DNA from: Streptomyces sp. NBC_01408 | Lineage (GTDB): Bacteria > Actinomycetota > Actinomycetes > Streptomycetales > Streptomycetaceae | Assembly (NCBI RefSeq): GCF_026340255.1 | Contig: NZ_JAPEPJ010000001.1 | Span: forward strand, 682,001-746,000 | Reading direction: 5' to 3' | DNA: 64,000 nucleotides | Shown: positions 8,760-12,028 of the stretch, piece by piece | How positions within the stretch are numbered: the stretch's first letter is position 1 | Layout: each line of letters begins with the position of its first letter | Position numbers and translations under genes: made by a program | The notes under the pieces: generated by a model | What the model was told of the DNA's origin: nothing | What the model saw: only the letters and a program-made list of their open reading frames with translations | Databases searched by the model: none

Positions 8760-8903
8760 CCGTACCCGTCCCCCGTGGGGGTGGAGATCGCCCGGATGAA
8801 CCTTTCATCGGACCGGTCCGGTCCCCCGACGGCGGTACGGTCACCGGCGTCGCTTGTACCGGAGCGCTGTCCGCACCCACACTGAGAGAAGGAGGTGCTT
8901 TCT

Positions 8904-9509
8904 ATGTCCGCTCTCGCCCATGAGGCCCTGTGCGACCCAGGTCTCGACGAGGTTCTCTGGCAGGCCTGGAAGGCGATGGACCTTCCGGAGGGCTACCGGG
9001 CCGAGATCATCGAAGGGGCCATCGAGGTGTCTCCCACCGGCCGCCGCCGCCACGGCGTACTCGCCCACCGCTTGCGCAGGGCTCTGGAAGCCCACCTGAC
9101 AGGCAGTGGCCTTGACGTCTACCAGGACCTCAACGTCATCCACGGCCGGAAGGTCTGCATCCCGGACCTCTTCGTGGGACCGGAAGACCTCGACGAGATC
9201 CCCGACGAGGAAGGCCTGGGTGTCGACGCCACCCGTGTCCACCTGGTCGCCGAGATCGTCTCCCCCGGCACGGACGCACACCGCCGGGACCACATCCGCA
9301 AGCGCCGCCGCTACGCCCTGGCGGGCATCCCGGTCTACGTCATCCTCGATGACTTCGACGCCCAGGGCACGGTGACGGTGTTCAGCGGTCCGGACCCCGA
9401 CAAGGGGACGTACTCCACGAAGACCACCGTCTCGTACGGCACTTCCACCACCGTCCCCGAAGGTCCCGCCAAGGGCCTGACGATCGACGGGGCCCTGACA
9501 CGCTCGTAG
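8904..9509 (+). CDS. Uma2 family (DUF820, PD-(D/E)XK-like) protein
   Basis: A 201-residue protein of the Uma2/DUF820 family, restriction-endonuclease-fold proteins that are very common in Streptomyces and whose role is unsettled. The family landmarks are EIIEGAIEVSP with GRRRHG near residues 33-53, the IPDLFVG segment that supplies the catalytic Asp, and EIVSPGTDAHRRDHIRKRR, which supplies the E-x-K-like end of the active site, followed by YVILDD. The ATG at 8904 has GGAGG at 8891-8895. It stands alone after the sdh terminator. Confidence 0.85.
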   Translation: MSALAHEALCDPGLDEVLWQAWKAMDLPEGYRAEIIEGAIEVSPTGRRRHGVLAHRLRRALEAHLTGSGLDVYQDLNVIHGRKVCIPDLFVGPEDLDEIPDEEGLGVDATRVHLVAEIVSPGTDAHRRDHIRKRRRYALAGIPVYVILDDFDAQGTVTVFSGPDPDKGTYSTKTTVSYGTSTTVPEGPAKGLTIDGALTRS

Positions 9510-9588
9510 GGCCTGGCCGGCGGTGCGACAACTCTCCGGCCGGAGCACGGGGTATGGGGTACGGGGGTCCTGTGGAAGGATCCTCCAT

Positions 9589-10137
9589 ATGAGTGACCAG
9601 CAGCCGAATCCGTACGCGAGCGACCCCTCCCAGGGCGGCCAGCCCGGCCAGCCCGGCCAGGACGACTACAAGTGGGGCCCGGGCGAGGCCAGTTACGGGT
9701 ACCCCCAGCCCTACCCGTCAACTCCCGCCTACCAGCCGACGATCGGCGGCCCGGGCCTCCCCGCGCCCGCCCCCGCGTACGCCCAGGGCCCGGGCGGCGC
9801 CGGCCTGAACCTCGGCGACATCACCATCGCCGGGGACCAGATCATCACCCCGTCGGGCACGATGCCGCTCAAGGGCGCGATGTGGAACGCGACCGACTTC
9901 TCGCGCACCGAGGAGAAGATCCCGACCCACGCGATCGTGCTCGCGATCGTCTTCGCGCTGTTCTGCCTGATCGGCCTGCTGTTCCTCCTGATGAAGGAGA
10001 AGGTCACCACGGGATACATCCAGATCACGGTCACCAGCGGCGGCCGCCACCACTCGACGATGATCCCGGCAGCGGACGCCCACACCTACGCGTGGGTGAT
10101 GACCCAGATCAACTACGCCCGCTCGCTGAGCATCTGA
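9589..10137 (+). CDS. Single-pass membrane protein of unknown function with Pro/Gln/Gly-rich N-terminus
   Basis: A 182-residue protein I cannot place in a named family. The first ~70 residues are a disordered Gln/Pro/Gly/Tyr-rich tail typical of streptomycete membrane proteins. A small domain follows (LGDITIAGDQIITPSGTMPL), then one membrane helix (AIVLAIVFALFCLIGLLFLLM, about 120-140), then a short extracytoplasmic or cytoplasmic beta-rich end (TTGYIQITVTSGGRHHSTMI). GGAAGGA precedes the ATG. It stands alone, and the large repeat element begins ~130 bp downstream. Confidence 0.8.
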   Translation: MSDQQPNPYASDPSQGGQPGQPGQDDYKWGPGEASYGYPQPYPSTPAYQPTIGGPGLPAPAPAYAQGPGGAGLNLGDITIAGDQIITPSGTMPLKGAMWNATDFSRTEEKIPTHAIVLAIVFALFCLIGLLFLLMKEKVTTGYIQITVTSGGRHHSTMIPAADAHTYAWVMTQINYARSLSI

Positions 10138-10309
10138 GGGGGCGGGGCGGCGGAGCGACGGAGCGGGCTCGCGGGACGGGGTCGTAGCGGGGTCGCGGAG
10201 CAGGGCCGCTGAGCAGGGTCGGCGGGCGGGGCGGCTTCGGCTGGGCGGCGGCGAGGGGTGGGGTGGGGGCTTCGGGGGCCATGTGCCTGCGGGGCCTGAT
10301 CAGGGATGG

Positions 10310-10459
10310 TTTGGGGGTTTCCCGTCAGTCCCATCGTCTTGCCGTGTCGGGCCGGCCCCTCAAGGGCGCTCCTTCGTCGCGTCGCTTCGCGATGGCCTTC
10401 GGCCACCCTTGACCGGCCGTCCCGCCCCGGAAAGACAGGACTGTCGGGAAGCCCCCAAA
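10310..10459 (+). repeat. Left 150-nt hairpin unit of the inverted-repeat element
   Basis: The ends pair: TTTGGGGGTTTCCCGTCAGT with CC (10310-10331) against its partner at 10438-10459, with two mismatches. An inner stem pairs GGCCGGCCCCTCAAGGG (10350-10366) with CCCTTGACCGGCC (10406-10418), one bulge included. The loop holds CGTCGCTTCGCGATGGCC. Confidence 0.85.
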
Positions 10460-10578
10460 AAGACGGTTACCTGGGGACGGACAGAGGAGCGGGGACATCA
10501 GCGATGGGCGGGCTGGGTGCAGCGGCCTGTCGGAGCGAGACCCCGACCAGACCCCCGGCGGGAGCGGGGGCGCATCAA

Positions 10579-10745
10579 ATCGCTACACACTCCTACCGAA
10601 TGGCGTCCGCAGACCGCCTGTGGCTGGGCATAAGCCGCCACAGATCGCTACACACGTCTCCCGGACGGCGTCTGCCGGTCGCCTGTGGCCGGACATAAGC
10701 CGCCGACGACCGGTCACCCGTCTCCCGGCCGGCGCCAGCAGGTCA
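10579..10745 (+). repeat. Tandem 65-bp units inside the inverted-repeat element
   Basis: Two clear units start with ATCGCTACACAC at 10579 and 10644 and share GGCGTC, GCCTGTGGC and ATAAGCCGCC at matching positions. A decayed third begins at 10709. One further unit occurs in reverse orientation on the other side, starting at ATCGCTACATGC (minus strand, 11085 downwards). The units differ by scattered substitutions and show no repeat/spacer split, so they are not a CRISPR. Confidence 0.75.
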
Positions 10746-10821
10746 TTTGTCCCTATTTGGCGGCGGGTTGGGGTGCGGATGACGTCCAGTCGGAGTGAGA
10801 TGCCGAGAAATCCGGCATCAG

Positions 10822-10950
10822 ACTCCGGCAGGGCGCTTTTCCCGCTCCGGACGGCCGTCAGGGGCCCTCTCCGACCTCCGGACGGCCGGTGGACGCCCCT
10901 TTCACGACCCGCGACGGCCGGCAGGCGCCCTTTCACGCTCCCATCGTCCG
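10822..10950 (+). repeat. Degenerate ~32-bp repeats in the centre of the element
   Basis: Three to four imperfect copies of a unit close to CGGACGGCCGGCAGGCGCCC + TTTCACGCTC, e.g. CTCCGGACGGCCG at about 10845 and 10876, and CCTTTCACG at about 10900 and 10929. Spacing is irregular. Confidence 0.5.
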
Positions 10951-11203
10951 GTCGTGGTGGCTTGCGCGCATCTCACACTCGGCTGGTCGACGCCGACTCA
11001 CCTCAGGCACCCACCAGACCGGTGGCGGCCTATGTCCAGCCACAGACGGGTGGCAGACGCCGAGAAATGAGACGCATGTAGCGATCTGACGCGCCCCCGC
11101 TCCTGCCGGGGATCTGGTCGGGGTCTCGCTCCGACAGGCCGCTGCCACGGGGCCGCCCATCCCTGGCCGCCCCGTCTATGGATCGGTCCCAGGTAACCGT
11201 CTT

Positions 11204-11355
11204 TTTGGGGGCTTCCCGACAGTCCTGTCTTTCCGGGGCGGGACGGCCGGTCAAGGGTGGCCGCAGGCCATCGCGAAGCGACGCGAACGCAGTGAGCGCC
11301 CTTGAGGGGCCGGCCCGACACGGCAAGACGATGGGACTGACGGGAAACCCCCAAA
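11204..11355 (-). repeat. Right 152-nt hairpin unit, reverse complement of the left unit
   Basis: This is the same hairpin as at 10310-10459, read on the opposite strand. The ends are 11204-11225 and 11334-11355. The loop differs most (ACGCGAACGCAGTGAGCG here), while the stems are kept, as expected if structure is conserved. Confidence 0.85.
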
Positions 11356-11535
11356 CCATCCCTGATCAGGCCCCGCAGGCACATGGCTCCCGAAGCCACC
11401 GCCCACCCTCCGACTCCGCCCCACCGGTACACGCCCCCGGGCACCCCGAGGAGGTCACCGGCCTGCTCCGGGACTTCCTGACGCGGCACCGGCCTGGATC
11501 CCCGAGATCGCCCACACCTGATCACCGAAGGTCGC

Positions 11536-11608: not shown

Positions 11609-12028
11609 ATGGACCTCACCGTGGTCGCGTACATCATCTACCTGCTCATCAGCATCGGGCTCACCGTCTGGGTGGCCCGCACGCTCAGCCGTAACGGCCG
11701 CGTCTTCATCGGCGACGTCCTCCAGGGGAACGAGAAGCTCGCCGACGCCGTCAACCAGCTCCTGGTGGTCGGCTTCTACCTCGTGAACATCGGCTTCGTG
11801 ACGCTCTACCTGCGCTCGGGCGAGGACATCGTGCGGGCCCGCGACCTCTTCGAGGCGCTGTCGGTCAAGCTCGGCGTCGTCCTGCTGGTCCTCGGCTTCA
11901 TGCACCTCGGCAACGTGTGGGTGCTGAACAAGATGCGCCGCCGCGGGCTCATGGAGCGCAACCAGACTCCGCCGGTCCCCCCGCAGGGGTGGACCGCGCC
12001 GGGGTGGACCGCGCAGACCAGGGCCTGA
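11609..12028 (+). CDS. Small integral membrane protein, first gene of a TetR-autoregulated operon
   Basis: A 139-residue protein with three or four membrane helices (about 3-22, 47-67, 89-110), starting VVAYIIYLLISIGLTVWVARTLSRNG. Between helices are the polar segments GDVLQGNEKLADAVN and RSGEDIVRARDLFEAL. The last 25 residues are polar and Pro/Trp-rich. I know similar proteins only as conserved hypothetical membrane proteins of actinomycetes. It is co-transcribed with the DCC-family protein (3-bp gap) and the TetR gene, and controlled by the two operators upstream. Confidence 0.8.
   Translation: MDLTVVAYIIYLLISIGLTVWVARTLSRNGRVFIGDVLQGNEKLADAVNQLLVVGFYLVNIGFVTLYLRSGEDIVRARDLFEALSVKLGVVLLVLGFMHLGNVWVLNKMRRRGLMERNQTPPVPPQGWTAPGWTAQTRA

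Follow-up and report, generated by a model that had tools for sequence, protein, structure and literature searches.

Results

A nested inverted repeat between two genes

The window analysed here is a 64,000-nt stretch of the genome of Streptomyces sp. NBC_01408 (contig NZ_JAPEPJ010000001.1). It contains a nested inverted repeat of 1.1 kb, which sits between two plus-strand genes (9586–10137 and 11609–12028). Neither flanking gene has a Pfam match; the upstream gene served to locate orthologous sites in other genomes, and in 28 loci the downstream gene occurs close to it. A Uma2-family gene lies near the element site (8895–9509, plus strand), and in locus L017, at the same site, the gap is filled by an open frame that is Uma2-like by eye.

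The arms of the element match each other in several nested pairs. The outermost pair (10228–10371 and 11294–11437) is 88% complementary, the second (10377–10475 and 11188–11286) 99% and the third (10453–10587 and 11077–11211) 76%, and inner inverted pairs lie within 10602–10660 and 11017–11093. The left end (10138–10306, plus strand) is G-rich and begins directly 3′ of the stop codon of the upstream gene, which ends at 10137. It is followed by the left hairpin (10307–10465, plus strand) of about 160 nt, composed of an imperfect outer stem and small tip hairpins, and by the region of 65-nt repeats (10571–10741, plus strand), in which the tandem repeat itself, about 65 nt in 2.5 copies, occupies 10579–10741. 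The element centre (10742–11016) contains a second tandem repeat of about 31–32 nt in 2.9 copies (10845–10937). An inverted copy of the 65-nt repeat, defined by inverted-pair matches, then follows (11017–11082, minus strand), and the element is completed by the right hairpin, also about 160 nt and inverted (11198–11358, minus strand), and a C-rich right end mirroring the G-rich one (11359–11437, minus strand), the precise end lying somewhere from about 11397 to about 11445. A short stretch beyond it (11445–11493, plus strand) matches L009, L012, L022 and L029 weakly (35–51 nt, E 2e-4 to 7e-3) and is perhaps the tail of a lost gene.

The original prediction had described inverted arms, a hairpin in each of them and two kinds of tandem repeat between them, all of which are present, with hairpins of about 160 nt. 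It had also stated that no gene is contained, in agreement with the codon-usage caller (a home-made script), which kept no open reading frame overlapping the element. With respect to the proposed limits of 10268–11397, the ends are apparently slightly wider, the G-rich sequence starting at 10138 and the longest arm pair reaching 11437. A search of Rfam at gathering scores gave nothing at the element locus; the sole match in the window was a ZMP/ZTP riboswitch (RF01750; 23837–23927, minus strand), and a known RNA family was rejected on these grounds.

Fold and covariation of the hairpin

The left hairpin folded as DNA gave −53 kcal/mol (z = −7.82) and the right hairpin folded as RNA gave −98.3 (z = −7.41); in neither case did any of 200 shuffles equal the value. 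Comparison of the two window hairpins showed that the stems are kept and the tips differ (CTCCTTCGTCGCG versus CTCACTGCGTTCGCG; GGCCTTCGGCC versus GGCCTGCGGCC), bearing out the earlier statement that stems are conserved between the arms while loops vary.

A profile search of the fetched loci yielded 104 distinct full hairpins. Over 48 stem pairs, pairing was kept in 95% of the cells, and it fell to 36–55% when the stem partners were slid, a comparison that favours the reference structure because this was derived from one of the 104 hairpins. Both-sided change was found in 13 of the 48 pairs. Cells with double-sided change numbered 119 against a shuffle mean of 30, and none of 500 shuffles reached 119, a significance that is overstated by the mutual relatedness of the hairpins. 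The number of further pair types was within the shuffle range (69 of 500 shuffles reached the observed number). This covariation supports the earlier proposal that the structure would be under selection.

On the top strand the middle tip loop has the sequence TNC, in which the central base is free (TTC in 54, TGC in 28, TAC in 19 and TCC in two of the 104 hairpins), the exception being a single CGC. GNA, the complement of TNC, is an unusually stable loop in DNA minihairpins, and its presence on the bottom strand points to folded DNA. Wobble pairs were counted as 70 top-strand G–T cells versus 49 A–C cells; because these counts lack a clear strand preference, they do not settle between a DNA and an RNA form. 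In the one copy inspected, the top strand runs on after the left hairpin as CCCCCAAAAAGACGG with no T-run, and a classical intrinsic terminator was rejected for this reason.

Distribution of the family in Streptomyces

The original prediction had named further copies in other Streptomyces as a check, and these were found. The hairpin was present in 19 of 199 evenly sampled Streptomyces genomes (E 1e-12 or better) in a survey that scored the four best candidates per genome and hence measures presence, not copy number. It was also present in 24 of 29 genomes selected by a homologue of the window's upstream gene, including S. flavotricini, S. toxytricini, S. goshikiensis, S. katrae and S. yangpuensis; this survey covered 29 of 39 upstream-gene loci, and four more, searched separately, were all positive, the other six being left out. 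Whole-element matches numbered 46 in S. xanthophaeus, 70 in S. virginiae and 25 in S. avidinii among the best candidates scored (at most 40), numbers that exceed those of copies because the hairpin matches on both strands. Eight complete genomes have 3 to 14 loci apiece, G008 matching in the hairpin core only. Of 296 genomes drawn from the phylum, one had an exact match to a 35-nt core pattern, namely G003, the centre genome.

The results showed that 44 copies, including that of the window, consist of a plus-strand hairpin followed by a minus-strand hairpin and span 894 to 3299 nt (28 of them up to 1416 nt, 16 from 1578 nt); the count omits L084, with three hairpins, L096, with a broken hairpin, the single-hairpin loci, and L041–L064, which were taken as duplicates of places fetched otherwise. 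The 65-nt repeats are present in 42 of the 44, and in 36 they occur on both arms, inverted relative to each other. The majority of copies measure about 1 kb and enclose nothing, and five near-identical copies with unrelated flanks were found in one genome. Several copies are located at contig ends in draft assemblies, and the family may therefore break Streptomyces assemblies.

Some copies and related sequences differ from this layout. L138 has ten 65-nt repeats, the most among the 44 paired copies, and, like L084, it is located within the final tenth of the G016 contig. L139, L140 and L144 are shorter, distant relatives in which the hairpin core matches and the outer stems differ, which suggests a second subfamily. 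Four copies (L073, L075, L117 and L118) have AAA in the central palindrome and L074 has TTT, which may reflect inversion of the centre or three substitutions. Hairpins with a similar core were seen on plasmids of Mycobacterium, Nocardia, Streptomyces and Sinorhizobium (position 3001 in L151 and L152, 2001 in L153, 4001 in L154, L155 and L156) with no inverted partner within 4–8 kb; that of the Sinorhizobium plasmid is about 340 bp from an IS110-family gene. The core pattern also occurred in one viral contig. No plasmid record covered 80% of the window element and no phage record matched it, the latter result leading to rejection of a phage origin.

Most copies lie beyond gene 3′ ends, many at sites shared between genomes

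A gene 3′ end is faced by 85 of 128 outward sides of the copies, as determined with a home-made ORF caller. The gene pairs flanking the element were 30 convergent, 38 tandem and five divergent (n = 73), compared to 57, 185 and 81, respectively, for background pairs at the same loci (n = 323). Thus, copies are mostly situated just beyond gene 3′ ends. Outside the hairpin lies a G-rich tract, often starting at the stop codon (mean G 0.56 and C 0.24 over 62 outward sides with a stop codon within 200 nt); such a tract was not seen by eye in four element-free sequences (L007, L011, L013 and L019).

Grouping by shared flanking genes placed 54 of 83 loci in 18 sites occupied in two or more genomes and left 29 loci ungrouped; the grouping is a reading of the list of locus pairs, and site J corresponds to a neighbourhood, not to a single gap. 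At the window's site, S. xanthophaeus (L001) has a hairpin, with the contig stopping inside the element. Among the 28 loci with both flanking genes of the window, a hairpin was found in L003 only, single and unpaired. The four sequences without a G-rich tract belong to these loci and consist of 161–162 bp with a plain terminator-like hairpin, and the remaining 23 have 588–3346 bp of other sequence between the flanking genes.

Across 12 sites and six element-bearing complete genomes, each site was occupied in one to four of the six, a patchy presence that needs many losses or repeated gains. Twenty regions were fetched at unoccupied sites, and half hairpins were found in two of them (L202 and L203, which are G201 at sites O and M) and none in the other 18. 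Short and plainly empty were site Q in G136, site G in G085 and G076, and site O in G085, G076 and G023; these clean junctions came from a second flank query, the first having given none, and some other hairpin-free regions contain 1–3 kb of other sequence. L114 looks like a fusion of both outer half hairpins. Because the hairpin is its own near-repeat, deletion between two hairpins would be expected to yield half or fused products.

On one side of site O, the junction is CAA/GGGG in G042, G056 and G201 (the last a remnant), compared to CAA/GCC at the empty sites of G085, G076 and G023. At site Q, G201 and G042 have an identical stop codon/GGGG. At site A, the window shares stop codon/GGG with S. 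xanthophaeus, H27-S2, G056 and G201 (L001, L003, L070 and L109), which is weak evidence because the empty sites, too, continue from the stop codon with G. At site B, three of the five genomes have roughly similar junctions, as do two of the four at site E.

Arm sequences follow the genome

The median identity of arms was 0.85 for the same genome at different sites (704 pairs), 0.669 for the same site in different genomes (146 pairs) and 0.644 where neither genome nor site was common (5777 pairs). With arms of the same element set aside, the closest arm came from the same genome for 62 of 83 arms, from the same site for none and from elsewhere for 21. These results demonstrate that arm sequences follow the genome and not the site.

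Long copies enclose ordinary genes

Comparison of the copies showed conserved arms of about 300–500 nt with extra sequence between them, and in the long copies passenger genes lie in this central position. The Pfam scan took in 13 of the 16 long copies (L132, L135 and L138 were left out), and ten of these enclose Pfam-matched passenger genes, with one to four ordinary genes per copy: two GNATs and a DUF6069 protein (L080), an EryCIII-like glycosyltransferase (L083), SnoaL (L071), an aldo-keto reductase and TetR (L106), PadR and an alpha/beta hydrolase (L119), AraC/GyrI (L127), a class IV aminotransferase (L134), a glyoxalase (L136), MarR (L143) and a family 88 hydrolase (L081), the last with a weak match under the curated cut-off. 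L110 and L130 gave no match in the scan. L109 encloses IS3-type transposase genes; given a 3-bp overlap of the flanking matches, these were taken to be an insertion nested within the copy. In addition, an XRE regulator is encoded between inverted repeats in L079, which retains a single hairpin.

In G056 a copy encloses the aldo-keto reductase and TetR pair; in S. virginiae the pair (87% identical) adjoins a copy on the outside, suggesting that a neighbouring host pair became enclosed, or the reverse. No hairpin was found alongside this pair at six other fetched loci, of which L239 is truncated at a contig end and L243 has a match to just one of the two genes. Relatives of the PadR–hydrolase pair of L119, or of one of its two genes, were found in 92 of 198 genomes, with a best match across the pair of 77% outside G042, and among 20 fetched loci with such relatives a hairpin lay alongside only at the locus of G042 itself.

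Evidence for mobility

Two features of known mobile elements were found in the family: terminal inverted repeats without a transposase gene, as in MITEs (13 of 16 long copies scanned), and passenger genes between transposon-type inverted ends, as in mobile insertion cassettes (ten copies, one of them weak). None of the 13 long copies scanned was seen to encode its own transposase, that of L109 being read as nested IS3, and no autonomous element sharing the hairpin ends together with a transposase was found among the copies examined. Inspection by eye of the five near-identical copies and of three comparisons with empty sites showed no target duplication, the ends lying in G-rich tracts. Y1_Tnp was present in three of ten element genomes versus one of ten others, and mobilisation by a RAYT/Y1 enzyme was rejected because Y1_Tnp does not track the element. 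Y2_Tnp (IS91-type) was found in none of 20 genomes, with the control equally silent, so that this result carries no information. IS110 was tested because the core-like hairpin of the Sinorhizobium plasmid adjoins an IS110-family gene; it occurred in nine of ten element genomes versus seven of ten others and was rejected as mobiliser, being found both with and without the element. Taken together, these results go part of the way with the earlier proposal of a non-autonomous mobile element, in that many copies, inverted hairpin pairs, some passenger genes and empty sites speak for it and the lack of a target duplication and of a transposase in the searches above speaks against it.

Discussion

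Given the observed family of hairpin pairs with covarying stems, shared sites, within-genome similarity and passenger genes, the reading that we prefer, with about even confidence, is that the window locus is one empty copy of a transposase-less Streptomyces family with long inverted repeats, whose members are old insertions, homogenised by recombination, that serve as holders for captured genes. We infer that each site goes back to an ancient insertion of a non-autonomous mobile element and that the hairpins are cut or recognised as folded DNA. Repair of broken hairpins from sister copies would then keep the family uniform within a genome by gene conversion, enclosed genes might now and then be exchanged between fixed sites by recombination, and copies would be lost by deletion between two hairpins. 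A more specific form, a transposase-free cassette-exchange system in which folded-DNA hairpins flank fixed docking sites and host recombination shuffles captured genes through breaks and gene conversion, is speculative and rather unlikely.

The main rival to the recombination reading is an active non-autonomous transposon of the MITE or passenger-cassette type, served in trans by a transposase and strongly preferring sites beyond gene 3′ ends, which we regard as a serious if minority possibility. Under it, the conserved sites would be hot spots of repeated insertion and the likeness within a genome a result of recent spread, and site-targeted turnover of this kind could mimic both conserved sites and within-genome similarity. 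Near-identical copies with unrelated flanks, the long inverted ends, the passenger genes, the patchy presence and the existence of empty sites are consistent with it, as is site K, where the orientation is opposite in G076 and G085 by a reading of the end types. However, the same site O junction in three species would require insertion to hit exactly the same position repeatedly, the copies examined (partly by eye) revealed no transposase bounded by such ends, and no target duplication was seen.

Placement past gene 3′ ends, together with the very stable fold, the covarying stems and the shared sites, would also fit a host-maintained structure (a 3′-end or insulator element, a chromosome organiser or an RNA 3′ structure) that is selected at its sites and homogenised by gene conversion, any mobility being incidental. 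We consider this improbable, because the same sites in relatives are empty or hold other sequence or a plain terminator-like hairpin, because passenger genes are enclosed, and because without a T-run the hairpin is not a classical terminator. Very improbable indeed is a decayed remnant of a known insertion sequence, which the original prediction had set against its own proposal: the ORF caller kept no gene in the window copy, but the copies are many, well kept and covarying, no plasmid record covered 80% of the element and no phage record matched it. In its single-copy form without covariation this explanation is refuted by the hairpin's presence in 19 of 199 genomes and by the covariation itself.

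Two results go beyond the original prediction: the recurrence at orthologous sites across species with homogenisation within each genome, and the carriage of genes by related copies. In this family, dispersed bacterial elements occupy the same positions across species, have their sequence homogenised per genome and enclose different genes although they encode no transposase themselves, which makes it a well-defined case for testing. Should the recombination reading be true, host repair could move genes between fixed chromosomal sites. Among the papers retrieved, none was recognised as describing this hairpin-ended family, as judged by titles and the starts of abstracts.

Several known systems share single features with the family. 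Integron attC sites are imperfect hairpins in which the fold is kept while the sequence varies, and they carry small adaptive genes as cargo; unlike attC sites, which form arrays pointing the same way, the Streptomyces hairpins form inverted pairs at scattered sites. The T-shaped terminal hairpins of AAV-like viruses are nested terminal palindromes of about 150 nt with small side hairpins. The likeness is one of form only, since the Streptomyces element is chromosomal with no replication gene seen.

Like REP, BIME and REPIN sequences, the Streptomyces hairpins are dispersed extragenic palindromes in inverted pairs. However, REPs are 20–40 bp according to PMC3733652, in the main text of which Streptomyces and Actinobacteria do not occur, whereas the hairpins described here are about 160 nt, lie in 1-kb elements and can hold genes. 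Moreover, unlike REP/RAYT systems, the element is found at 3 to 14 loci per complete genome and is not tracked by Y1_Tnp; membership in the REP/REPIN class was thus rejected on both size and RAYT association.

The closest comparison is with mobile insertion cassettes (MIC/MICE) and TIMEs/TIME-COMPs, which, as described in PMC5444012 and PMC13367494, are repeat ends without a transposase around ordinary passenger genes, the ends being short MITEs (50–500 bp) or derived from Tn3-family transposons. Unlike these ends, the Streptomyces arms are about 300–500 nt long and contain internal repeats as well as a 160-nt hairpin that covaries, the copies are homogenised within genomes at shared sites, and they have no known parent transposon. 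Like MICs and TIME-COMPs as described there, the Streptomyces element consists of transposase-less ends around ordinary genes.
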